Below are positions 7,421 to 61,756 of a stretch of 64,000 nucleotides of DNA, one piece after another. The stretch lies in contig JAGUCH010000004.1 of NCBI GenBank assembly GCA_019096065.1, positions 5,890,001-5,954,000 of the forward strand, given 5' to 3'. The notes under the pieces are model-generated. The model saw only the letters and a list, made by a program, of their open reading frames with translations. It did not search any database and was not told the origin of the DNA. Each line of letters opens with the position of its first letter. Positions within the stretch are counted from its first letter, which is position 1. The translations under genes were made by a program, and so were the position numbers. Source of the stretch: Paracyclopina nana. Lineage: Eukaryota; Arthropoda; Copepoda; Cyclopoida; Cyclopettidae.

Positions 7421-7659
7421 CGGTGTGTCTAAATACTGCACCAAGCTGCAATGGACTGCATCAACCAGCACTGGACTGTACCACACTGCAACAGGCTTGA
7501 AAAAGCTAAAAACGTCAGTTCAGACAGTTGCATCAGCTGCATGCCTCAATGCGCGCCGAAGAGTGAGCTGAATTTCCCAAAATAAAACAACACATAATTC
7601 CAATGCATAAAGAGGAAGCGATTGATGACATAAAAACAATGCCAAAAGACGTGAATTCG

Positions 7660-10600
7660 GGCGCAAGCTTTTTGTTTCAGTGGGCAACTGAAAATCGCAT
7701 CGCCACTAGCATTTCGCTACTACAGCCAGCTTTCAAACTGAATTTGCCACACTGCACCAGAAGTAACTTTTTTCAAAGTGGTTTGTGGAAAAGTTTCTTT
7801 TTACCACTAGCTTCCATGGAAAACTAGAGTTTCAGTTTTGTCGCAAACTTTTTGTTTCAGTAGGCAACTGAAAATCGCATCGCCACTAGCATTTCGCTAC
7901 TACAGCCAGCTTTCAAACTGAATTTGCCACACTGCACCAGAAGTAACTTTTTTCAAAGTGGTTTGTGGAAAAGTTTCCTTGCAGCACTAGCTTCCATGGA
8001 AAACTAGAGTTTCAGTTTTGTCGCAAACTTTTTGTTTCAGTAGGCAACTGAAAATCGCATCGCCACTAGCATTTCGCTACTACAGCCAGCTTTCAAACTG
8101 AATTTGCCACACTGCACCAGAAGTAACTTTTTTCAAAGTGGTTTGTGGAAAAGTTTCCTTTTACCACTAGCTTCCATGGAAAACTAGAGTTTCAGTTTTG
8201 TCGCAAACTTTTTGTTTCAGTAGGCAACTGAAAATCGCATCGCCACTAGCATTTCGCTACGACAGCAAGCCTTCAAACTGAATTTGCCACACTGCACCAG
8301 AAGTAACTTTTTTCAAAGTGGTTTGTGGAAAAGTTTCCTTTTACCACTAGCTTCCATGGAAAACTAGAGTTTCAGTTTTGTCGCAAACTTTTTGTTTCAG
8401 TAGGCAACTGAAAATCGCATCGCCACTAGCATTTCGCTACTACAGCCAGCTTTCAAACTGAATTTGCCACACTGCACCAGAAGTAACTTTTTTCAAAGTG
8501 GTTTGTGGAAAAGTTTCCTTGCAGCACTAGCTTCCATGGAAAACTAGAGTTTCAGTTTTGTTGCAAACTTTTTGTTTCAGTAGGCAACTGAAAATCGCAT
8601 CGCCACTAGCATTTCGCTACTACAGCCAGCCTTCAAACTGAATTTGCCACACTGCACCAGAAGTAACTTTTTTCAAAGTGGTTTGTGGAAAAGTTTCCTT
8701 TTACCACTAGCTTCCATGGAAAACTAGAGTTTCAGTTTTGTCGCAAACTTTTTGTTTCAGTAGGCAACTGAAAATCGCATCGCCACTAGCATTTCGCTAC
8801 TACAGCCAGCCTTCAAACTGAATTTGCCACACTGCACCAGAAGTAACTTTTTTCAAAGTGGTTTGTGGAAAAGTTTCCTTTTACCACTAGCTTCCATGGA
8901 AAACTAGAGTTTCAGTTTTGTCGCAAACTTTTTGTTTCAGTAGGCAACTGAAAATCGCATCGCCACTAGCATTTCGCTACTACAGCCAGCTTTCAAACTG
9001 AATTTGCCACACTGCACCAGAAGTAACTTTTTTCAAAGTGGTTTTTGGAAAAGTTTCCTTGCAGCACTAGCTTCCATGGAAAACTAGAGTTTCAGTTTTG
9101 TTGCAAACTTTTTGTTTTAGTAGGCAACTGAAAATCGCATCGCCACTAGCATTTCGCTACTACAGCCAGCTTTCAAACTGAATTTGCCACACTGCACCAG
9201 AAGTAACTTTTTTCAAAGTGGTTTGTGGAAAAGTTTCCTTGCAGCACTAGCTTCCATGGAAAACTAGAGTTTCAGTTTTGTCGCAAACTTTTTGTTTCAG
9301 TAGGCAACTGAAAATCGCATCGCCACTAGCATTTCGCTACTACAGCCAGCTTTCAAACTGAATTTGCCACACTGCACCAGAAGTAACTTTTTTCAAAGTG
9401 GTTTTTGGAAAAGTTTCCTTGCAGCACTAGCTTCCATGGAAAACTAGAGTTTCAGTTTTGTCGCAAACTTTTTGTTTTAGTAGGCAACTGAAAATCGCAT
9501 CGCCACTAGCATTTCGCTACTACAGCCAGCTTTCAAACTGAATTTGCCACACTGCACCAGAAGTAACTTTTTTCAAAGTGGTTTGTGGAAAAGTTTCCTT
9601 GCAGCACTAGCTTCCATGGAAAACTAGAGTTTCAGTTTTGTCGCAAACTTTTTGTTTCAGTAGGCAACTGAAAATCGCATCGCCACTAGCATTTCGCTAC
9701 TACAGCCAGCTTTCAAACTGAATTTGCCACACTGCACCAGAAGTAACTTTTTTCAAAGTGGTTTGTGGAAAAGTTTCCTTGCAGCACTAGCTTCCATGGA
9801 AAACTAGAGTTTCAGTTTTGTCGCAAACTTTTTGTTTCAGTAGGCAACTGAAAATCGCATCGCCACTAGCATTTCGCTACTACAGCCAGCTTTCAAACTG
9901 AATTTGCCACACTGCACCAGAAGTAACTTTTTTCAAAGTGGTTTGTGGAAAAGTTTCCTTGCAGCACTAGCTTCCATGGAAAACTAGAGTTTCAGTTTTG
10001 TCGCAAACTTTTTGTTTCAGTAGGCAACTGAAAATCGCATCGCCACTAGCATTTTGCTACTACAGCCAGCTTTCAAACTGAATTTGCCACACTGCACCAG
10101 AAGTAACTTTTTTCTAAGTGGTTTGTGGAAAAGTTTCCTTTTACCACTAGCTTCCATGGAAAACTAGAGTTTCAGTTTTGTCGCAAACTTTTTGTTTCAG
10201 TAGGCAACTGAAAATCGCATCGCCACTAGCATTTCGCTACTACAGCCAGCTTTCAAACTGAATTTGCCACACTGCACCAGAAGTAACTTTTTTCAAAGTG
10301 GTTTGTGGAAAAGTTTCCTTTTACCACTAGCTTCCATGGAAAACTAGAGTTTCAGTTTTGTTGCAAACTTTTTGTTTCAGTAGGCAACTGAAAATCGCAT
10401 CGCCACTAGCATTTCGCTACTACAGCCAGCTTTCAAACTGAATTTGCCACACTGCACCAGAAGTAACTTTTTTCAAAGTGGTTTTTGGAAAAGTTTCCTT
10501 GCAGCACTAGCTTCCATGGAAAACTAGAGTTTCAGTTTTGTCGCAAACTTTTTGTTTCAGTAGGCAACTGAAAATCGCATCGCCACTAGCATTTCGCTAC

Positions 10601-11112
10601 TACAGCCAGCTTTCAAACTGAATTTGCCACACTGCACCAGAAGTAACTTTTTTCAAAGTGGTTTGTGGAAAAGTTTCCTTGCAGCACTAGCTTCCATGGA
10701 AAACTAGAGTTTCAGTTTTGTCGCAAACTTTTTGTTTCAGTAGGCAACTGAAAATCGCATCGCCACTAGCATTTCGCTACTACAGCCAGCTTTCAAACTG
10801 AATTTGCCACACTGCACCAGAAGTAACTTTTTTCAAAGTGGTTTGTGGAAAAGTTTCCTTGCAGCACTAGCTTCCATGGAAAACTAGAGTTTCAGTTTTG
10901 TCGCAAACTTTTTGTTTCAGTAGGCAACTGAAAATCGCATCGCCACTAGCATTTCGCTACTACAGCCAGCTTTCAAACTGAATTTGCCACACTGCACCAG
11001 AAGTAACTTTTTTCAAAGTGGTTTGTGGAAAAGTTTCCTTGCAGCACTAGCTTCCATGGAAAACTAGAGTTTCAGTTTTGTCGCAAACTTTTTGTTTCAG
11101 TGGACAACTGAA
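7660..11112 (+). repeat. 180-bp satellite array, left arm (about 19 copies)
   Basis: The period is exactly 180 bp with very few indels. Each unit reads through TTTTTGTTTCAGTAGGCAAC, CACTGCACCAGAAGTAAC and CTTCCATGGAAAACTAG. Variants alternate at one site (TTACCACTAG versus GCAGCACTAG) and at a few single bases. Adjacent units are almost identical, pointing to recent unequal exchange or rolling-circle type amplification. Short open frames through the units are interrupted by stops and are not genes. Confidence 0.97.
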
Positions 11113-11477
11113 CTATATTTATTAATGTCATATTTCATTTTGTCAGCATTTTGGGGTACACTTTTCATTTTTTTGAACATATTGAGTTAATAGTCAATGT
11201 TTTTTGATTTCATCAAATGAACATGCAAAAAATGAGATAAAATTGAAATTTTATTATAAATATGATATGCGATGAGCATTTTTTATTTCTGTCATCATTT
11301 CTATCATCATACCATCATTGGTGGACCATTTTTAGGGTAGTTTTACTGTGAGTGCATCATAGTTTGATTAATTAATAAAGCTTTCTCTTTCTTAAGACTA
11401 AGACATATCTTAAGTGAAAGAAAGTTAGAAAAGCTAGAAAGATAGTTTACCTATGGTGGATTCCGACCCCATGAAAG
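11113..11477. other. Unique centre of the foldback element, with a small hairpin
   Basis: AT-rich 365-bp sequence between the two arms. It contains an imperfect hairpin at about 11379-11440 (arms around CTTTCTTAAGA and TCTTAAGTGAAAG). No coding frame or transposase motif is visible. Confidence 0.6.
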
Positions 11478-14039
11478 TTACTTCTGGTGCAGTGTGGCAA
11501 ATTCAGTTTGAAAGCTAGCTGTTGTAGCAAAATGCTAGTGGTGATGTGATTTTCAGTTGCCCACTGAAACAAAAAGTTTGCGACAAAACTGAAACTCTAG
11601 TTTTCCATGGAAGCCAGTGCTACAAGGAAACTTTTCCAAAAACCACTTTGAAAAAAGTTAGTTCTGGTGCAGTGTGGCAAATTCAGTTTGAAAGCTGGCT
11701 GTAGTAGCGAAATGCTAGTGGCGATGCGATTTTCAGTTGCCCACTGAAACAAAAAGTTTGCGACAAAACTGAAACTCTAGTTTTCCATGGAAGCTAGTGG
11801 CAAAAGGAAACTTTTCCACAAACCACTTTGAAAAAAGTTACTTCTGGTGCAGTGTGGCAAATTCAGTTTGAAAGCTGGCTGTAGTAGCGAAATGCTAGTG
11901 GCGATGCGATTTTCAGTTGCCCACTGAAACAAAAAGTTTGCGACAAAACTGAAACTCTAGTTTTCCATGGAAGCTAGTGGCAAAAGGAAACTTTTCCACA
12001 AACCACTTTGAAAAAAGTTACTTCTGGTGCAGTGTGGCAAATTCAGTTTGAAAGCTAGCTGTTGTAGCAAAATGCTAGTGGTGATGTGATTTTCAGTTGC
12101 CTACTGAAACAAAAAGTTTGCGACAAAACTGAAACTCTAGTTTTCCATGGAAGCTAGTGGTAAAAGGAAACTTTTCCACAAACCACTTTGAAAAAAGTTA
12201 CTTCTGGTGCAGTGTGGCAAATTCAGTTTGAAAGCTAGCTGTTGTAGCAAAATGCTAGTGGTGATGTGATTTTCAGTTGCCTACTGAAACAAAAAGTTTG
12301 CGACAAAACTGAAACTCTAGTTTTCCATGGAAGCTAGTGGTAAAAGGAAACTTTTCCACAAACCACTTTGAAAAAAGTTACTTCTGGTGCAGTGTGGCAA
12401 ATTCAGTTTGAAAGCTGGCTGTAGTAGCGAAATGCTAGTGGCGATGCGATTTTCAGTTGCCCACTGAAACAAAAAGTTTGCGACAAAACTGAAACTCTAG
12501 TTTTCCATGGAAGCTAGTGGCAAAAGGAAACTTTTCCACAAACCACTTTGAAAAAAGTTACTTCTGGTGCAGTGTGGCAAATTCAGTTTGAAAGCTGGCT
12601 GTAGTAGCGAAATGCTAGTGGCGATGCGATTTTCAGTTGCCCACTGAAACAAAAATTTTGCGACAAAACTGAAACTCTAGTTTTCCATGGAAGCTAGTGC
12701 TGCAAGGAAACTTTTCCACAAACCACTTTGAAAAAAGTTACTTCTGGTGCAGTGTGGCAAATTCAGTTTGAAAGCTGGCTGTAGTAGCGAAATGCTAGTG
12801 GCGATGCGATTTTCAGTTGCCCACTGAAACAAAAAGTTTGCGACAAAACTGAAACTCTAGTTTTCCATGGAAGCTAGTGGTAAAAGGAAACTTTTCCACA
12901 AACCACTTTGAAAAAAGTTACTTCTGGTGCAGTGTGGCAAATTCAGTTTGAAAGCTGGCTGTAGTAGCGAAATGCTAGTTGCGATGCTATTTTCAGTTGC
13001 CCACTGAAACAAAACGTTTGCGACAAAACTGAAACTCTAGTTTTCCATGGAAGCTAGTGCTGCAAGGTAACTTTTCCACAAACCACTTTGAAAAAAGTTA
13101 CTTCTGGTGCAGTGTGGCAAATTCAGTTTGAAAGCTGGCTGTAGTAGCGAAATGCTAGTGGCGATGCGATTTTCAGTTGCCCACTGAAACAAAAATTTTG
13201 CGACAAAACTGAAACTCTAGTTTTCCATGGAAGCTAGTGCTGCAAGGAAACTTTTCCACAAACCACTTTGAAAAAAGTTACTTCTGGTGCAGTGTGGCAA
13301 ATTCAGTTTGAAAGCTGGCTGTAGTAGCGAAATGCTAGTGGCGATGCGATTTTCAGTTGCCCACTGAAACAAAAAGTTTGCGACAAAACTGAAACTCTAG
13401 TTTTCCATGGAAGCTAGTGGTAAAAGGAAACTTTTCCACAAACCACTTTGAAAAAAGTTACTTCTGGTGCAGTGTGGCAAATTCAGTTTGAAAGCTGGCT
13501 GTAGTAGCGAAATGCTAGTTGCGATGCTATTTTCAGTTGCCCACTGAAACAAAACGTTTGCGACAAAACTGAAACTCTAGTTTTCCATGGAAGCTAGTGC
13601 TGCAAGGTAACTTTTCCACAAACCACTTTGAAAAAAGTTACTTCTGGTGCAGTGTGGCAAATTCAGTTTGAAAGCTGGCTGTAGTAGCGAAATGCTAGTG
13701 GCGATGCGATTTTCAGTTGCCCACTGAAACAAAAAGTTTGCGACAAAACTGAAACTCTAGTTTTCCATGGAAGCTAGTGGCAAAAGGAAACTTTTCCACA
13801 AACCACTTTGAAAAAAGTTACTTCTGGTGCAGTGTGGCAAATTCAGTTTGAAAGCTGGCTGTAGTAGCGAAATGCTAGTGGCGATGCGATTTTCAGTTGC
13901 CCACTGAAACAAAAAGTTTGCGACAAAACTGAAACTCTAGTTTTCCATGGAAGCTAGTGGTAAAAGGAAACTTTTCCACAAACCACTTTGAAAAAAGTTA
14001 CTTCTGGTGCAGTGTGGCAAATTCAGTTTAAAAGCTGGC
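11478..14039 (-). repeat. 180-bp satellite array, right arm, inverted (about 14 copies)
   Basis: Reverse complement of the left-arm satellite with the same exact 180-bp period (CTTCTGGTGCAGTGTGGC, GTTGCCCACTGAAAC). The last unit decays at about 14036, where AAAGCTGGC runs into unrelated sequence. Together with the left arm it would form a hairpin of more than 2.5 kb in single-stranded DNA or read-through RNA. Confidence 0.97.
12541..13620. repeat. 540-bp higher-order repeat, two tandem copies
   Basis: Three successive 180-bp units carry distinctive variants: AAAAATTTTG at 12651, TAAAAGG at 12871, and the pair GCGATGCTAT/AAAACGTTTG at 12981-13020. The same three-unit block repeats at 13081-13620 with the variants in the same order, and I saw no difference between the two 540-bp blocks. 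Confidence 0.9.
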
Positions 14040-14313: not shown

Positions 14314-14583
14314 TACGTCTTTTTTTCCATTGAATCTTGTGCTACTAGGAATTTTTCAAGCATTTGAAATCAATTACCTTTTCTGTTGAGGCGGCTTTAG
14401 TTTATTTATGTATGTGTTTTTCTGGTGCATTCTGGTTTAGCCTATTATTAGCACCTTGCAGATTGATGCAGGTTGGTGCTGGGTGGTGCAGGTTGGTGAA
14501 CGTCGGTGTAGTTTGGTGCAGTCCATTGCAGTACATTGCAGTCTAATGCAGTCCAGATCAGTTTGGTGCAGTATTTAGTCGCG

Positions 14584-51651: not shown

Positions 51652-52338
51652 CTACAGTGCATTTTGTGACTGAATTGATTTGAAATTGTGAAACCGAATT
51701 TCTGGTTGGGATTGGAGGCTTTGGCGCAAGAAATGCAAGCCACGACCGCCTCTTTTGAAAATTGGCCATTTTCTTCCTATCCTCTCGCACTTCCACTGGT
51801 TGTCATACGTCAATCTACATTGGTAAGTTGAAATTGGTCTCGGTGGCACAAATATTGGGCTATCCATTCCAGAACGCAAATAACGATGGTCATAATTTGC
51901 CGTTGTACATTCAATAAAATACTCGGGATCTCTGAACACTGTATTCTTATCGCTGATAAATTTGAAGCTGCGACCTCTACCTTCTGACAACTGGCTCGCA
52001 GTGTTTTCATTCAGGTCTTGACTTTTGGGCACTATGTGCGATTTGTATAGGTGTGTTGGAGTTGGGAGCACATTTTTATGATTTGTAATTTTGACGTTCA
52101 AAGGATTCTTTGGTGCAGCATTGATTGAGGGAAGATGAACGTTGCCTTGTCGAAAGGCTTTCTGTTCATTTCTCGTGTGTTGGCCAGAGTAAATTGTGGG
52201 CAATCGAAACGCATCGTCGCCTTTCTCATTGCCGTAGATAAAATATGCAATCAGACTCAACAAAACAAGGAAAACGACAACAGAAAGCACTAAGGTGAAG
52301 TTATTTGCAACTATCGTATGACCTCCACTCAGGCTCAT
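51652..52338 (-). CDS. Unrecognised single-pass membrane protein
   Basis: A single-exon 228-residue frame. A short N-terminus (MSLSGGHTIVANN) precedes one strong helix (about residues 15-34, LVLSVVVFLVLLSLIAYFIY), then a basic tail of about 190 residues rich in Asn, Gln, Ser and Arg. No signal peptide cleavage is needed; a signal-anchor is likely. The tail has only three cysteines (EYFIECTTANYD, TYQCRLTYDNQWKCER). A TATATATA sequence lies a few bases upstream of the ATG, too close to serve this start unless the mRNA has almost no leader; the next ATG would then need testing. I do not recognise a family. The length, helix and continuous frame in AT-rich DNA support it as real. Confidence 0.6.
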   Translation of the reverse strand: MSLSGGHTIVANNFTLVLSVVVFLVLLSLIAYFIYGNEKGDDAFRLPTIYSGQHTRNEQKAFRQGNVHLPSINAAPKNPLNVKITNHKNVLPTPTHLYKSHIVPKSQDLNENTASQLSEGRGRSFKFISDKNTVFRDPEYFIECTTANYDHRYLRSGMDSPIFVPPRPISTYQCRLTYDNQWKCERIGRKWPIFKRGGRGLHFLRQSLQSQPEIRFHNFKSIQSQNAL

Positions 52339-52845: not shown

Positions 52846-52995
52846 ATGCTTACTCTGAAGAAAATGAATGTCTTCATTGCTGTTACATTCTTTTTGGCGT
52901 TTTTGTCTTGCCAAGCTGTACTAGCAGATGGAGACACCAAAGGGGCTAGATTGATCAAGGTGGGCAACACCCTTGACAACTATGCCCAAATTCTC
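52846..52995 (+). CDS. Secreted orphan protein, 5' fragment before insertion
   Basis: The ATG at 52846 (or the in-frame ATG at 52864) begins a signal peptide (MNVFIAVTFFLAFLSCQAV, cleavage near VLA|DG). The frame continues through LIKVGNTLDNYAQIL, where it meets the first base of a 7.8 kb mobile element at 52996. The frame resumes with no shift after the element at 60848, so this is the amino-terminal 50 codons of a gene of about 352 residues before insertion. Inside the element the frame stops within about 45 nt. The family is not recognised. Confidence 0.75.
52988..52995. repeat. Left 8-bp target-site duplication
   Basis: AAATTCTC at 52988-52995 recurs at 60840-60847, on either side of an element with GGTAACAC...GTGTTACC ends. 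It lies within the coding frame of the secreted orphan protein. Confidence 0.9.
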
Positions 52996-53100
52996 GGTAA
53001 CACTCTCATGTTCAGCGCACAAAAATGCTCAAATTGACATAGATATCAAATAAAAAAACACAAAAAGTCTGAGCAGGGCACATACAATCAAAAATTTTCT

Positions 53101-54634
53101 TTCCCAACCACCACCAATCACCACCCAAATTTGATTTTGGATTTGGTCTTTTTTTCTGATCACCACCCATCACCACCCAAATTTGAATTTCGTTTTGCCT
53201 CTTTTTTCCCAATCACCACCCATCACCACCCAAACTGATTTTGGATTTGGTCTTTTTTTTCTAATCACCACCCATCACCACCCAAATATGATTTTGGATT
53301 TGGTCTTTTTTTCAGATCACCACCCAAATTTGAATTTCGTTTTGCCTCTTTTTTCCCAATCACCACCCATCACCACCCAAACTGATTTTGGATTTGGTCT
53401 TTTTTTCTGATCACCACCCATCACCACCCAAATTTGAATTTCATTTTACCTCTTTTTTCCCAATCACCACCCATCACCACCCAAAATGATTTTGGATTTG
53501 GTCTTTTTTTCTGATCACCACCCATCACCACCCAAAATGATTTTGGATTTGGTCTTTTTTTTCTGATCACCACCCATCACCACCCAAATTTGAATTTCAT
53601 TTTACCTCTTTTTTCCCAATCACCACCCATCACCACCCAAAATGATTTTGGATTTGGTCTTTTTTTTCTGATCACCACCCATCACCACCCAAATATGAAT
53701 TTCGTTTTGCCTCTTTTTTCCCAATCACCACCATTCACCACCCAAATTTGATTTTGGATTTGGTCTTTTTTTCTGATCACCACCCATCACCACCCAAAAT
53801 GATTTTGGATTTGGTCTTTTTTTCTGATCACCACCCATCACCACCCAAAATGATTTTGGATTTGGTCTTTTTTTTCTGATCACCACCCATCACCACCCAA
53901 ATTTGAATTTCATTTTACCTCTTTTTTCCCAATCACCACCCATCACCACCCAAAATGATTTTGGATTTGGTCTTTTTTTTCTGATCACCACCCATCACCA
54001 CCCAAATATGAATTTCGTTTTGCCTCTTTTTTCCCAATCACCACCAATCACCACCCAAATTTGATTTTGGATTTGGTCTTTTTTTCTGATCACCACCCAT
54101 CAACACCCAAATATGATTTTGGATTTGGTCTTTTTTTCTGATCACCACCCATCACCACCCAAATATGATTTTGGATTTGGTCTTTTTTTCTGATCACCAC
54201 CCATCACCACCCAAATATGAATTTCGTTTTTGCCTCTTTTTTCCCAATCACCACCAATCACCACCCAAATTTGATTTTGGATTTGGTCTTTTTTTCTGAT
54301 CACCACCCATCACCACCCAAACTGATTTTGGATTTGGTCTTTTTTTCTGATCACCACCCATCACCACCCAAATATGAATTTCGTTTTGCCTCTTTTTTCC
54401 CAATCACCACCAATCACCACCCAAATTTGATTTTGGATTTGGTCTTTTTTTCTGATCACCACCCATCACCACCCAAATATGATTTTGGATTTGGTCTTTT
54501 TTTCTGATCACCACCCATCACCACCCAAATATGATTTTGGATTTGGTCTTTTTTTCTGATCACCACCCATCACCACCCAAATTTGAATTTCATTTTACCT
54601 CTTTTTTCCCAATCACCACCCATCACCACCCAGA
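53101..54634 (+). repeat. 53-bp minisatellite, left arm
   Basis: Two related monomers of about 53 bp are interspersed, both containing ATCACCACCCATCACCACCC. One ends TTTTGGATTTGGTCTTTTTT, the other TTTCGTTTTGCCTCTTTTTT. About 29 copies. Long frames read through them (repeats of DHHPSPP/FASFFPITT) purely because of the repeat period. Confidence 0.95.
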
Positions 54635-55047
54635 CGATGCTAAAGTTAGCACTATGACAACTTCAAAATTAGTTAAAACATGGTGAAAAAATGCAAAACT
54701 TTGTAAAACGTTGTCAAAAATACAATTTTGCTCAGGCAAATATGCTCTCTTCATCTACAAACTCCTTAAGGAATCGGAACTCAAAATTCCTTTGCGCCAA
54801 ACAGTTCTCAGTACATAAATTAGCTGCGTAGAGTTGTATGCATGGATTTGTCACAATGCATTCTTTAAGGAATGGTAGATGAACAGTATTTTAATCATGT
54901 ACGCTACGCTAGTTTTGCTCCTTGACCGAAAAATTGTTGCTAAAAATATTCTAGTTTATGTCAGATTTTGCACTGGGAGACTGATGGACCTGGACTTCCC
55001 AAGATCCTAACAACTATAACCAGAATGAGCACAACTTGCTAGCTCAA
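54635..55047. other. Unique segment of the element
   Basis: About 410 bp of AT-rich sequence between the left minisatellite arm and the 169-bp satellite. It has no counterpart on the right side, no coding frame and no motif I recognise. Confidence 0.5.
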
Positions 55048-58000
55048 AGTCAGTTTTATTTAAGAACTCTTGAATTTTAAGTCAAAATGTCAGTTGCAGC
55101 TGTTAGTGTGAGTCAACTTGACTCAAAATTTGAGGCAAAGTCAACCTTTTTTTGATTTTGAGCTAGCAAGAGCTAAAACTTGGGCATCACATTATACTAC
55201 CAATTAATTGCTGAAAAAATTGAATTTCTTGACAAAAGTCAATTTTGAGTCAAAGTGTTGGTTGCCGCTGATAGTGTGAGTCAACTTGACTAAAAACTTG
55301 AGGAGAAGTGAAACTTCTGACTCATTTTGAGTTCGCAAGAGTGAAAACTTGCGCATTGCTAGATGCTATGTATTTATCTCATAGTGCTGCTAGTAAACTT
55401 CTAAGAAAATACGAAATTATGGATAAGGTCAATTTTGAGTCAAAATGTCTATAATGGCTGATAATTTGAGGCATTTGGACCCTAAATGTGAGGCGAAGTC
55501 AAGCTTTGACTCATTTTTGACTATGCGAGAGCCATAACTTGCGCATTGCGTAATGCTGCTAATAAACTACTTAGAAAATACGAAATTCTTGATAAGGTCA
55601 ATTTTGAGTCAAAATGTCAATAGTGGCTGATAATTTGAGGCATCTGGACCCTAAATGTGAGGCAAAGTCAAGCTTTGACTCATTTTTGACTATGCTAGAA
55701 ATAAAAACTATTGAGAAAATGCAAAATTCTGGACTTCTGGTCAAAATGATAATTTGAGGCATTTGGACTCTAAATGTGAGGCAAAGTCACGCTTTGACTT
55801 ATTTTTGACTATGAGAGAAATAAAAACTTACGCATCCCGTAACGCTAGTAATAAACTATTGAGAAAATGCAAAATTCTGGACTAGTCAATTTTGAGTCAA
55901 AATGTCAGTAGTGGCTGATAATTTGAGGCATTTGGACCCTAAATGTGAGGCAAAGTCAAGCTTTGACTTATTTTTGACTATGAGAGAAATAAAAACTTAC
56001 GCATCGCGTAACGCTGCTAATAAACTACTAAGAAAATGCAAAATTCTGGACTAGTCAATTTTGAGTCAAAATGTCAGTAGTGGCTGATAATTTGAGGCAT
56101 CTGGACTCTAAATGTGAGGCAAAGTCAAGCTTTGACTTATTTTTGACTATGAGAGAAATAAAAACTTACGCATCCCGTAACGCTACTAATAAACTATTGA
56201 GAAAATGCAAAATTCTGGACTAGTCAATTTTGAGTCAAAATGTCAGTAGTGGCTGATAATTTGAGGCATCTGGACCCTAAATGTGAGGCAAAGTCAAGCT
56301 TTGACTTATTTTTGAGTATGAGAGAAATAAAAACTTACGCATCGCGTAACGCTGCTAATAAACTACTAAGAAAATGCAAAATTCTGGACTAGTCAATTTT
56401 GAGTCAAAATGTCAGTAGTGGCTGATAATTTGAGGCATCTGGACTCTAAATGTGAGGCAAAGTCAAGCTTTGACTTATTTTTGACTATGAGAGAAATAAA
56501 AACTTACGCATCCCGTAACGCTACTAATAAACTATTGAGAAAATGCAAAATTCTGGACTAGTCAATTTTGAGTCAAAATGTCAGTAGTGGCTGATAATTT
56601 GAGGCATCTGGACCCTAAATGTGAGGCAAAGTCAAGCTTTGACTTATTTTTGACTATGAGAGAAATAAAAACTTACGCATCCCGTAACGCTAGTAATAAA
56701 CTATTGAGAAAATGCAAAATTCTGGACTAGTCAATTTTGAGTCAAAATGTCAGTAGTGGCTGATAATTTGAGGCATTTGGACCCTAAATGTGAGGCAAAG
56801 TCAAGCTTTGACTTATTTTTGACTATGAGAGAAATAAAAACTTACGCATCGCGTAACGCTGCTAATAAACTACTAAGAAAATGCAAAATTCTGGACTAGT
56901 CAATTTTGAGTCAAAATGTCAGTAGTGGCTGATAATTTGAGGCATCTGGACTCTAAATGTGAGGCAAAGTCAAGCTTTGACTTATTTTTGACTATGAGAG
57001 AAATAAAAACTTACGCATCCCGTAACGCTACTAATAAACTATTGAGAAAATGCAAAATTCTGGACTAGTCAATTTTGAGTCAAAATGTCAGTAGTGGCTG
57101 ATAATTTGAGGCATCTGGACCCTAAATGTGAGGCAAAGTCAAGCTTTGACTTATTTTTGAGTATGAGAGAAATAAAAACTTACGCATCGCGTAACGCTGC
57201 TAATAAACTACTAAGAAAATGCAAAATTCTGGACTAGTCAATTTTGAGTCAAAATGTCAGTAGTGGCTGATAATTTGAGGCATCTGGACTCTAAATGTGA
57301 GGCAAAGTCAAGCTTTGACTTATTTTTGACTATGAGAGAAATAAAAACTTACGCATCCCGTAACGCTACTAATAAACTATTGAGAAAATGCAAAATTCTG
57401 GACTAGTCAATTTTGAGTCAAAATGTCAGTAGTGGCTGATAATTTGAGGCATCTGGACCCTAAATGTGAGGCAAAGTCAAGCTTTGACTTATTTTTGACT
57501 ATGAGAGAAATAAAAACTTACGCATCCCGTAACGCTACTAATAAACTATTGAGAAAATGCAAAATTCTGGACTAGTCAATTTTGAGTCGAAATGTCAGTA
57601 GTGGCTGATAATTTGAGGCATCTGGACCCTAAATGTGAGGCAAAGTCAAGCTTTGACTTATTTTGGACTATGCAAGAGCCAAAACTTGCGCATCGCGTAA
57701 TGCTGCTAATAAACTACTAAGAAAATGCAAAATTCTGGACTAGTCAATTTTGAGTCGAAATGTCAGTAGTGGCTGATAATTTGAGGCATCTGGACCCTAA
57801 ATGTGAGGCAAAGTCAAGCTTTGACTTATTTTTGACTATGCGAGAGCCAAAACTTGCGCATCGCGTAATGCTACTTATAAACTATAAGAGCTGATTTTGA
57901 AATTTATCATGCTAGATGGCGCCACTGTAAGGTAGTACAGCTGTTTACGCATGACGCTTTGACGGAAAAGTGTGAAAAAATATTTTAAGGTTACGCACTC

Positions 58001-59410
58001 AAAAGCTGCTAAAAGTTGCCAGTATTTTCATAAAACAGCCCGAATCACTCATTACGTAATGAAAAAAGTTTTTATCTGGTAGCACCATAAAAGCCAACAT
58101 TATTTAACTCTGCTCTGATTGGGCTAAAAAAGGCGGAAAATTTCAAAATACATTGCAAATGAAGAACTTTAGCATTTTCCCGCTTTTTTCTGCTGATCGG
58201 CCTGGTTTTTTTTAACTTGGTAGCATGAAATATAATAGGGAACAAATATTATTAATCAAATTTTCCAGAAATCATATGGAAAGGCTAATTTTTTGGCAAA
58301 TTTCGAATTGCTATTTAGCTGCCTCTGTAGTGAACATACTACACGGCTTTTCACGCTAGGGTGCGCTGACTGTACTACGTAACAGACGCCATGGTTCCTT
58401 ATTGAGAAAATGCAAAATTCTGGACTAGTCAATTTTGAGTCGAAATGTCAGTAGTGGCTGATAATTTGAGGCATCTGGACCCTAAATGTGAGGCAAAGTC
58501 AAGCTTTGACTTATTTTTGACTATGCGAGAGCCAAAACTTGCGCATCGCGTAATGCTACTTATAAACTATAAGAGCTGATTTTGAAATTTATCATGCTAG
58601 ATGGCGCCACTGTAAGGTAGTACAGCTGTTTACGCATGACGCTTTGACGGAAAAGTGTGAAAAAATATTTTAAGGTTACGCACTCAAAAGCTGCTAAAAG
58701 TTGCCAGTATTTTCATAAAACAGCCCGAATCACTCATTACGTAATGAAAAAAGTTTTTATCTGGTAGCACCATAAAAGCCAACATTATTTAACTCTGCTC
58801 TGATTGGGCTAAAAAAGGCGGAAAATTTCAAAATACATTGCAAATGAAGAACTTTAGCATTTTCCCGCTTTTTTCTGCTGATCGGCCTGGTTTTTTTTAA
58901 CTTGGTAGCATGAAATATAATAGGGAACAAATATTATTAATCAAATTTTCCAGAAATCATATGGAAAGGCTAATTTTTTGGCAAATTTCGAATTGCTATT
59001 TAGCTGCCTCTGTAGTGAACATACTACACGGCTTTTCACGCTAGGGTGCGCTGACTGTACTACGTAACAGACGCCATGGTTCCTTATTGAGAAAATGCAA
59101 AATTCTGGACTAGTCAACTTTGAGTCGAAATGTCAGTAGTGGCTGATAATTTGAGGCATCTGGACCCTAAATGTGAGGCAAAGTCAAGCTTTGACTTATT
59201 TTTGACTATGCAAGAGCCAAAACTTGCGCATCGCGTAATGCTGCTAATAAACTACTAAGAAAATGCAAAATTCTGGACTAGTCAATTTTGAGTCAAAATG
59301 TCAGTAGTGGCTGATAATTTGAGGCATCTGGACCCTAAATGTGAAGCAAAGTCAAACTTTGACTCATTTTTGACTATGCGAGAGCCAAATTTTGCGCATC
59401 GCGAAATGCT
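55048..59410 (+). repeat. 169-bp satellite forming the core of the element
   Basis: The period is 169 bp, measured from successive GTCAATTTTGAGTC starts at 55885, 56054, 56223, 56392 and on. Units share GTGGCTGATAATTTGAGGCA and AGTCAAGCTTTGACTTATTT. The first units (55048-55700) and the last are diverged, typical array edges. Units carry marker variants (CATCGCG versus CATCCCG; GAGTATG versus GACTATG). A five-unit block of about 845 bp recurs (units starting near 55716 and 56561, clear over 55790-56560 against 56635-57405). Confidence 0.95.
57886..59085. repeat. Duplicated 514-bp insertion inside the satellite
   Basis: A satellite unit is interrupted after AAACTAT at about 57886 by 514 bp of unrelated DNA (starting AAGAGCTGATTTTG, containing AGATGGCGCCACTG, ending ACGCCATGGTTCC), after which the unit resumes. 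The same insertion with its flanking satellite recurs 685 bp later (58571-59085). I saw no difference between the two copies. So an insertion event was followed by tandem duplication. Confidence 0.85.
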
Positions 59411-59464
59411 TTACTTTTGCAAACTTTCAAACTCAAAATGAGTCAAAAATTATCATATTTTGAG

Positions 59465-60735
59465 TCATATTTTGGGTGGTGATCAGAAAAAAAAGACCAA
59501 ATCCAAAATCAGTTTGGGTGGTGATGGGTGGTGATTGGGAAAAAAGAGGCAAAATGAAATTCAAATTTGGGTGGTGATGGGTGGTGATCAGAAAAAAAAG
59601 ACCTAATCCAAAATCATATTTGGGTGGTGATGGGTGGTGATCAGAAAAAAAGACCAAATCCAAAATCAGTTTGGGTGGTGATGGGTGGTGATTGGGAAAA
59701 AAGAGGCAAAACGAAATTCAAATTTGGGTGGTGATGGGTGGTGATTGGGAAAAAAGAGGCAAAACGAAATTCAAATTTGGGTGGTGATGGGTGGTGATTG
59801 GGAAAAAAGAGGCAAAACGAAATTCAAATTTGGGTGGTGATGGGTGGTGATTGGGAAAAAAGAGGCAAAACGAAATTCAAATTTGGGTGGTGATGGGTGG
59901 TGATCAGAAAAAAAGACCAAATCCAAAATCAGTTTGGGTGGTGATGGGTGGTGATCAGAAAAAAAGACCAAATCCAAAATCAGTTTGGGTGGTGATGGGT
60001 GGTGATTGGGAAAAAAGAGGCAAAACGAAATTCAAATTTGGGTGGTGATGGGTGGTGATTGGGAAAAAAGAGGCAAAACGAAATTCAAATTTGGATGGTG
60101 ATGGGTGGTGATCAGAAAAAAAGACCAAATCCAAAATCAGTTTGGGTGGTGATGGGTGGTGATTGGGAAAAAAGAGGCAAAACGAAATTCAAATTTGGGT
60201 GGTGATGGGTGGTGATTGGGAAAAAAGAGGCAAAACGAAATTCAAATTTGGGTGGTGATGGGTGGTGATCAGAAAAAAAAGACCAAATCCAAAATCAGTT
60301 TGGGTGGTGATGGGTGGTGATTGGGAAAAAAGAGGCAAAACGAAATTCAAATTTGGATGGTGATGGGTGGTGATCAGAAAAAAAAAGACCAGATCCAAAA
60401 TCAGTTTGGGTGGTGATGGGTGGTGATCAGAAAAAAAGACCAAATCCAAAATCAGTTTGGGTGGTGATGGGTGGTGATTGGGAAAAAAGAGGCAAAACGA
60501 AATTCATATTTGGGTGGTGATCAGAAAAAAGACCAAATCCAAAATCATTTTGGGTGGTGTTGGGTGGTGATTGGGAAAAAAGAGGCAAAATGAAATTCAA
60601 ATTTGGGTGGTGATGGGTGGTGATTGGGAAAAAAGAGGCAAAACGAAATTCAAATTTGGGTGGTGATGGGTGGTGATCAGAAAAAAAGACCAAATCCAAA
60701 ATCATTTTGGGTGGTGATGGGTGGTGGTTGGGAAA
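59465..60735 (-). repeat. 53-bp minisatellite, right arm, inverted
   Basis: The reverse complement of the left minisatellite (GGGTGGTGATGGGTGGTGAT, AAAAAAGAGGCAAAACGAAA), about 24 copies of both monomer types. Base pairing with the left arm could form a hairpin of more than 1.2 kb. Confidence 0.95.
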
Positions 60736-60839
60736 GAATAATTGTGATTTTATGTGCCCTGCTCAGACTTTTTGTGTTTTTTTATTTGATATCTATGTCA
60801 ATTTGAGCATTTTTGTGCGCTGAACATGGGAGTGTTACC

Positions 60840-60847
60840 AAATTCTC
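60840..60847. repeat. Right 8-bp target-site duplication
   Basis: The second copy of AAATTCTC, immediately after GTGTTACC. The frame of the secreted orphan protein resumes here. Confidence 0.9.
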
Positions 60848-61756
60848 AGCCCAAGGGCAGCAAAGGCCAGAGAGCCCAAGAAAAGCCCTACCAATCCCAT
60901 CAGGTCACAACTTTATAAGTTGAAACAGGAGAAAATGGTGAAAAACCAGCAAAGGAAGAAGAGTATCATTGCTGGAGCCACGGTCATTAAAAACTTGATG
61001 AAAACCACGCAGAGCGTAAAAATGGATGAAAAAGACCACATCGTCGAGGTCGATCCGAAGGCTGTTGGCCGAGTGGTCTTGTCGATGAAGAGAAGGATTG
61101 GAGTCGTCACTGACTCATTTGAAACTCGAAAAATGGCTGCTTCGAATGGATTCAACCAATACCAGAGTGTTGGCCATGGATCATGTGATGCTCTGAATAT
61201 CATGATGAGAGTCAGCCAATTTGAAAGGACTCGATCGGCTCAAAGGCCAAATAGGACGAGGACAAAAAGATTGAGCATAATGACTGCCAAGCCATCGACC
61301 TCTCAAGACCTGGACTTGTCATGGTTCGACCAATTCTTGAACGGATGGACTGATGAAGATTGGGATGGAGGACCTACCACTCAAACATTTATGGGCGGCC
61401 AAGATCTTGAACCGAATGATTTGTCCCTCTTGGCCTACCACATGAGCAATCCGGATTGCACCTACTCCTATTGTGCTTACACTGGAGATGAAATGCAAGC
61501 ATGCAACAATGACCTGGAGAATTTGATCAATTTCGACCCGCAAATCTCGGCCTGGATTCAATTCATGATGGGCTACAAAGTGGAGCCACATCAACCCTAC
61601 TCAGAGTTGAACAGAGAGCAAAGCAATGGGTACTACATGCACAAAATGTCCGAGCTTTTGGAAGCAAAGCTCAAAAGTGGTGCGTGGAGGGCAGCTCCGC
61701 AAAGTTGTGCTATTATTGTGCTAGCTGCTTTGGCTGCCGACTTGTGGGCCCATTAA
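60848..61756 (+). CDS. Secreted orphan protein, 3' fragment after insertion
   Basis: The open frame resumes directly after the right target duplication in the same phase as the 5' fragment and continues for 302 codons to TAA at 61754. A basic start (ARBitrary Lys/Arg-rich segment: KAREPKKSP, MVKNQQRKKSI) is followed by HIVEVDPKAVGRVVLSMKRR. Then comes an acidic, Trp-rich part (SWFDQFLNGWTDEDWDGG) with a cysteine cluster (NPDCTYSYCAYTGDEMQACN) and INFDPQISAWIQFMMGY. The end is hydrophobic (QSCAIIVLAALAADLWAH), which could be a membrane or GPI-type tail. No family recognised. The cysteine pattern and the signal peptide of the 5' fragment suggest an extracellular protein. Intact codons on both sides argue that the insertion is recent or is spliced out. 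Confidence 0.72.
   Translation, partial: SPRAAKAREPKKSPTNPIRSQLYKLKQEKMVKNQQRKKSIIAGATVIKNLMKTTQSVKMDEKDHIVEVDPKAVGRVVLSMKRRIGVVTDSFETRKMAASNGFNQYQSVGHGSCDALNIMMRVSQFERTRSAQRPNRTRTKRLSIMTAKPSTSQDLDLSWFDQFLNGWTDEDWDGGPTTQTFMGGQDLEPNDLSLLAYHMSNPDCTYSYCAYTGDEMQACNNDLENLINFDPQISAWIQFMMGYKVEPHQPYSELNREQSNGYYMHKMSELLEAKLKSGAWRAAPQSCAIIVLAALAADLWAH

Follow-up and report, generated by a model that had tools for sequence, protein, structure and literature searches.

A 7,844-bp element in the genome of the copepod Paracyclopina nana is, in all likelihood, a nonautonomous foldback transposon that landed in the single open reading frame of a gene of 352 codons whose product would be secreted. The element lies at positions 52996 to 60839, as read directly from the sequence, of a 64,000-nucleotide stretch of contig JAGUCH010000004.1 (C4:5890001-5954000, in a 91.95-Mb genome of 10 contigs); this whole stretch is called the window here, and positions given without a contig are those of the window. 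The ends of the element, the duplication at its flanks, the family to which it belongs, and the continuous frame at an empty site rebuilt by script are direct observations. The element probably disrupts the gene on this copy of the chromosome, and the likeliest reading is that of a recent insertion with a protein truncated in this haplotype.

Element ends, target site and the family across the genome

The element starts with GGTAACAC and finishes with GTGTTACC (longer terminal sequences: left, GGTAACACTC; right, GAGTGTTACC), and the 8-bp target site duplication (TSD) AAATTCTC stands on both flanks. The outermost 113 bp at each end are inverted repeats of each other, with 108 of 113 positions identical. 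Inward of these unique ends, each arm consists of a 52-bp tandem array, and the two arrays lie in opposite orientation (~89% in the arm-to-arm alignment) around a middle much of which is a 169-bp satellite. Tandem repeats make up most of the element, and no genes were recognized in it. Long inverted arms with internal tandem repeats, as expected of a foldback element, are therefore present. The first-pass annotation of this DNA had described a satellite-bearing foldback element with inverted ends and an 8-bp duplication, and its structure and coordinates proved correct. A 9-bp repeat can be read at 6 of 13 insertion sites, including the window (CAAATTCTC), by counting an end base of the element into the repeat; we rejected a 9-bp duplication because only 8 bp fits once the ends are set at GGTAAC/GTTACC. 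The left flank gave no match by megablast against phage sequences, as expected. Two tandem 685-bp units within the satellite region are identical to each other at 683 of 685 positions, and each is a satellite monomer with an inserted segment of ~516 bp. The ends of this segment (57885-58400) form an imperfect inverted repeat, and a 36-bp part of the segment is found again, at 97%, at the locus of a MULE-domain match on C7 (L065); the segment may be a small element in its own right.

The 112-bp left end (52997-53108) used as a query matched 29 genomic places, and a 26-bp pattern of the ends, allowing 3 mismatches at most, gave 29 matches (15 forward, 14 reverse), compared to 0 for the reversed-pattern control. 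These ends pair into 14 complete elements (4.0, 5.2, 5.8, 7.5, 7.6, 7.8, 8.5, 10.5, 11.2, 13.0, 13.1, 16.3, 19.9, and 23.3 kb), one of which is nested in the 52-bp array of another and has a TSD of its own. A fifteenth element, at C9:3013734, has a left end and, ~15.5 to 17 kb on, an inverted 52-bp array (C9:3029269-3030712), which we infer to belong together; no right end was found there with the end query or the end pattern. When TSD lengths of 6 to 11 bp were tried with the ends fixed at GGTAAC/GTTACC, a length of exactly 8 bp fitted the flanks outside these ends for 13 of the 14 complete elements. The remaining one (C1:10453187) has changed end bases and failed the 8-bp test, and an 8-bp repeat, TGAATTTA, lies on both sides of it, one base off. 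Inverted ends are thus accompanied by a duplication of fixed length, as expected of foldback elements, and the duplicated 8-mers have no strict sequence in common.

Ten of the 14 complete elements carry CTCTC at one end and CTCCC at the other and therefore have an orientation. CTCTC occurs at both ends in three (C1:11034599, C8:1296000, and C1:10453187), and the nested element has an altered end. The three elements with CTCTC at both ends match the 112-bp query over 76 bp only or at 78 to 79%. The 434-bp inner segment has 8 full-length matches within elements, six at 98.2 to 99.1% and the others at 95.7 and 86.6%. The family is a small and apparently young, recently active group of nonautonomous foldback DNA transposons.

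The two repeats of the element differ in where else they are found. Arrays of the 52-bp repeat are present in 15 of 15 elements, and among the matches listed (263 in the genome), all fall within these elements. The 169-bp satellite or a diverged relative is likewise present in 15 of 15. The best match to the window satellite elsewhere in the family is 89.6 to 99.1% in 11 elements, where a single figure stands for the nested element and the one around it, each of which has matches, and the C9 element is covered over its first 5.2 kb; it is only 72 to 73% in the three elements with differing ends. A genome search with the satellite gave 318 matches, with 39 of 165 first-look candidates scored. 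Among the matches listed, the satellite also occurs outside the family at ~84 to 87% (for example, C3:2464950-2467445, C3:6568176-6570163, and C5:6708788-6710607). The larger family members carry additional tandem arrays, among the arrays listed, and the differences in array length between arms and between members could have arisen by unequal exchange within arrays. With a 52-bp array that is family specific among the matches listed and a satellite that is dispersed, the family offers a ready case for how satellites travel with transposons.

The interrupted frame, its rival readings and the age of the insertion

Removal of the element and one copy of the duplication by script gave an uninterrupted 352-codon frame that passes from ...NYAQIL to SPRAAKAR..., free of stops, as had been claimed for the two sides. 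A TAA stands directly before the ATG at 52846. The left 50 codons include a signal-like stretch by hydropathy (NVFIAVTFFLAFLSC), and the right 302 codons end at the stop at 61754-61756 after a hydrophobic tail (CAIIVLAALAADLWA). Hydropathy, predictor-free, suggests that the host product would be secreted and perhaps anchored to lipid. With the element in place, the left frame continues for 13 codons into the element and then meets a stop, and the present product would be a truncated peptide of 63 residues. Each half, the right one taken from 60920, occurs once in the genome. No Pfam family matched the left half at an E value of 1, and NCBIfam gave one chance-level row for it (E 0.24); the right half had no Pfam, PDB, or NCBIfam match at an E value of 1 over 278 of its 302 codons, from 60920.

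The chance of a 352-codon open frame is ~5e-9 with the base composition of the frame and 2e-11 with that of the downstream sequence, figures driven almost wholly by the right 302 codons; for the left 50 codons by themselves, the probability of a chance open frame is ~0.03 to 0.07. We considered that the two frames could be two different genes with the element between them, sharing a frame by chance. The left part alone is short, and the right part has an in-frame ATG of its own, the first being MVKNQQ. However, no signal-peptide-like hydrophobic stretch lies near that ATG, although the right part has a hydrophobic tail, whereas the left 50 codons are signal-like (hydropathy, predictor-free), and the frame at the empty site joins without a shift or a stop. 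Two separate genes are thus highly unlikely in our estimate, and we infer that the two parts belong to one gene. The first-pass annotation had also spoken of one former gene with a signal peptide; the common frame, the signal-like N terminus, the hydrophobic C terminus, and a weak codon bias on the left stand in its favor, and this support is indirect.

Several observations weigh against a single gene interrupted by a transposon. A frame shared by chance has a probability of 1 in 3, to be multiplied by the 0.03 to 0.07 for 50 open codons. Codon bias favors the stated frame on both sides, weakly for the left 50 codons: the left frame scores 0.103, the other two forward frames score -0.056 and -0.083, and one reverse frame reaches 0.092. 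When 147-nt pieces were compared, 40 of 760 others scored at least as high as the left frame with a model built without the right half and 21 of 760 with a model that included it; these pieces overlap and are not proven noncoding, and the small codon training set includes the frame at 51655-52338, which is not proven to be a gene. Neither a transposase nor an autonomous partner was identified in the frames and families searched. Finally, exon insertion is not unique to the window, given that a frame at C1:141027 also spans its junction.

This last point came from applying the same joining test to the 12 other non-nested sites, each seen in a stretch of 778 to 840 bp (at most 280 codons) without gene models. 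The spanning frames there ranged from 26 to 144 codons, and the 144-codon frame at C1:141027 reaches the edge of its stretch and crosses the junction by 13 nt. Among the 13 non-nested sites, only in the window is a long frame evident on either side, and it is the clearest case of a coding insertion in the family. At the C1:152260 end of the C1:141027 element (L051), on the minus strand, the element directly follows ...AATAAAAGTAAAG. The duplicated 8 bp there hold a donor-like GTAAAG, and therefore this insertion may lie right where an intron begins; the C1:141027 frame would then be an exon, its splice donor preserved by the duplication. No Pfam family over the cutoff was found for the L051 frame.

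We next consider whether the element could be a 7.8-kb, satellite-filled intron of a gene that is still intact. The donor would lie in the left end (TCG/GTAACA at 52997) or nearby, and the acceptor AG would lie in or just beyond the right duplication. The frames on both sides are still open, and in-frame GT-AG pairs exist, such as 52997 with 60861, which would give 348 codons. There is also a precedent among introners, some families of which bring a single splice site and take the second one from the duplication or a nearby exon (PMC9860276). However, of 80 pairs tried (4 GT by 20 AG), 17 are in frame and stop-free, compared to ~27 expected in frame by chance before stops are considered; some in-frame pairs are expected anyway because one third of arbitrary pairs keep the frame. 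Nine of the 17 workable pairs have their GT in the coding part, ahead of the element, and the pair at the edge of the duplication (52997 with 60850) is out of frame. Splicing of the element would thus amount to combinations on paper, and we regard this explanation as very improbable. If it were true, a transposon of the foldback class would have given rise to a new intron while leaving the gene otherwise intact.

Returning to the broken gene, we estimated the age of the insertion from the divergence of the element itself. Four single-copy segments (756 bp) were aligned over 8, 10, 11, and 11 sequences, omitting copies that were diverged or incomplete; the window copy shows 6 private substitutions and 1 private indel, or ~0.8%. 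In the 434-bp segment, the private changes number 4 in the window copy, compared to 0 to 3 in six other copies and 14 in the C9 copy. Private divergence is an upper bound on the time since insertion, given that some changes may predate it. At ~0.8%, the 1,056 coding bases would be expected to have acquired ~8 substitutions, with 0.4 nonsense changes, and 1.4 indels. The probability of no disabling change, indels counted, would be ~0.17 (0.26 at 0.6% and 0.07 at 1.2%), and with nonsense changes only it would be 0.67 (0.74 at 0.6% and 0.55 at 1.2%); these figures are rough, since the assumed indel rate (1 for every 6 substitutions) is based on no more than the 6 substitutions and the single indel counted above.

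Undecayed frames had been taken to imply an insertion that is recent, polymorphic, or tolerated by splicing. This implication does not follow, given that neutral decay would leave the frames whole with a probability of ~0.17 (0.67 with nonsense changes only); intact frames demand neither selection, polymorphism, nor splicing. We therefore rejected an age argued from the open frames, which are weak evidence, even though they fit a young insertion best. Recency is better founded on the low divergence of the element and its perfect duplication. The insertion is presumably young, and other chromosomes of the species may lack it; it provides a clean presence/absence marker whose empty site can be predicted exactly.

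Table 1. Parts of the element, its target site, and the frame it interrupts, in window coordinates
Feature	Position	Strand	Evidence
Left part of interrupted frame, 50 codons from ATG, signal-like hydrophobic stretch	52846..52995	+	Single copy; no Pfam at E 1
Target site duplication AAATTCTC, left copy	52988..52995	.	Direct reading
Left terminal unique segment of inverted repeat, GGTAACACTCTCATG...	52996..53108	+	29 matches in the genome (query 52997-53108)
Left inverted arm, 52-bp tandem array, ~29 copies	53109..54632	+	Repeat analysis
Nontandem inner segment (434 bp), common to family members	54633..55066	+	8 full-length matches in elements
169-bp satellite array	55385..57885	+	Repeat analysis; also outside family
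Two tandem 685-bp units, each a satellite monomer with ~516-bp inserted segment	57715..59084	+	
Final copies of 168/169-bp satellite	59090..59410	+	Repeat analysis
Right inverted arm, 52/53-bp tandem array, ~24 copies	59473..60735	-	Repeat analysis
Right terminal unique segment of inverted repeat, ...GAGTGTTACC	60727..60839	-	108/113 identical to left end
Target site duplication AAATTCTC, right copy	60840..60847	.	Direct reading
Right part of interrupted frame, 302 codons + stop, hydrophobic C terminus	60848..61756	+	Single copy from 60920

Transposase search and superfamily

Stop-to-stop frames of at least 120 codons were listed for 22 genomic stretches, and 20 of them were searched in Pfam (17 within elements and 3 in flanks). 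No transposase of the family was recognized by Pfam in the 17 element frames, or by the Mutator-like element (MULE), TNP-like, and IS1595 domains within the 15 elements, a search that covers frames of at least 120 codons and has hAT, KDZ, and other superfamilies outside it. Frames that translate tandem repeats gave short or weak Pfam rows only (C2H2 fragments, ORF29, and DUF6411), none passing alone. The element at C1:10453187-10469532 contains one frame for an integrase core and another for a Monjiviricetes-type fusion glycoprotein (L044 and L045). When four frames were compared with a phage library, transposase rows were obtained for the integrase frame and chance-level rows otherwise. We rejected the integrase as the transposase of the family, as it belongs to a nested element of the long terminal repeat type at that locus.

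The MULE domain has 5 matches in the genome, none inside the 15 elements, and neither GTAACAC nor GTGTTAC is present in the 3.3-kb loci around these five. Two of the MULE-domain frames (L062 and L065) open with a stretch that is hydrophobic and signal-like, apparently an uncommon feature in a transposase. PF21787, which we take as a marker of P-type (TNP-like) transposases, has 11 matches in the genome, none inside the 15 elements. PF12762 (IS1595-type transposase), which we assume covers the Merlin superfamily, has 0 matches in the genome, which does not support a place in Merlin.

The ends themselves were also used in looking for an autonomous partner. A relaxed end pattern with up to 2 mismatches gave 109 forward and 108 reverse matches, compared to 89 and 99 for the control; the first 100 places were listed, and matches beyond the family are mostly chance. 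A repeated 15-mer, GGTAACACTTTCAGG, has 42 exact copies in the genome and, with one mismatch, 32 forward and 42 reverse matches, compared to 5 and 9 for the control. It was rejected as a related transposon end at the one inverted pair read (L066, C3:1326440-1328580), because the inverted repeats extend beyond the 15-mer both ways and flank a BTB/C2H2 zinc-finger gene. That gene lies within inverted repeats of ~220 bp that contain GGTAACACTTTCAGG.

The 8-bp TSD of the family falls within the 8 to 11 bp of the Mutator group. P elements likewise give an 8-bp TSD, and the length is thus not specific to MULEs. MULEs have TSDs of 8 to 11 bp and often long terminal inverted repeats (TIRs) (PMC6446971), and most foldback elements seem to fall in the Mutator group, while the foldback element Galileo belongs to the P superfamily (PMC4079207). 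The 8-bp TSD and the long composite arms are consistent with the Mutator group. The P superfamily is a candidate as well, given that TNP-like domains occur in the genome and that Galileo is of the P superfamily.

As a mechanism, we propose that the short unique 113-bp ends (GGTAACAC...) carry the presumed transposase sites. A putative transposase supplied in trans from elsewhere in the genome would recognize these ends and excise the element, which would then insert by an 8-bp staggered cut, giving the 8-bp TSD; in the window, the landing site would have been the single open frame of the 352-codon gene for a secreted protein. The cut-and-paste step is argued from structure, as no transposase or autonomous partner was identified.

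Other features of the window and known systems

A second, different structure lies at 7662-14039, where two inverted 180-bp satellite arrays with arms of ~2.5 kb, 97% complementary, surround a spacer. Shorter, imperfect inverted repeats lie outside these arrays (~7430-7480 and 14470-14580; 80% over 50 bp). The structure is foldback-like, as far as the arrays themselves tell. DM4/DM12 and SID-1 domains are also encoded in the window (Pfam), in keeping with an arthropod source.

The family is of a known kind, the foldback transposon with satellite content, and opens no new class of system; it would be of more than modest interest only if transcripts showed the gene to tolerate the insertion. Its closest parallels are found among other foldback elements. 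Tetris, a foldback element of Drosophila virilis, is similar in its terminal inverted repeats with internal tandem repeats, its variable, noncoding middle, its TSD of 8 to 9 bp in complete copies, its lack of an identified autonomous partner, and its link to satellite arrays elsewhere in the genome (PMC4079207). Tetris differs in having a repeat unit of ~220 bp, compared to 52 bp here, and 3 structurally complete copies, compared to 14 here with a TSD of 8 bp; moreover, the satellite-like arrays of Tetris derive from the arm repeat, whereas the dispersed repeat of the present family is the middle one (PMC4079207). Tm1, a Mutator/foldback element of root-knot nematodes, shares composite inverted repeats made of short tandem repeats, left and right ends that differ, and a variable size, but its TSD is mostly 9 bp, its unit is 13 to 15 bp, and one group encodes a putative transposase (PMC3169594). 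Rehavkus, which is related to MULEs, has a minisatellite within the element and arthropods among its hosts; unlike the present family, it has a 9-bp TSD, a transposase with a PHD finger, and a minisatellite before the 3' TIR only (PMC6446971). Introners resemble the window element in that they are located in coding genes and some have TIRs and TSDs; their median family lengths are 30 to 654 nt, with 5 to >2,000 copies as introns (PMC9860276). In comparison, the present family has a 7.8-kb element in one clear gene, with a possible role as an intron that exists on paper only.

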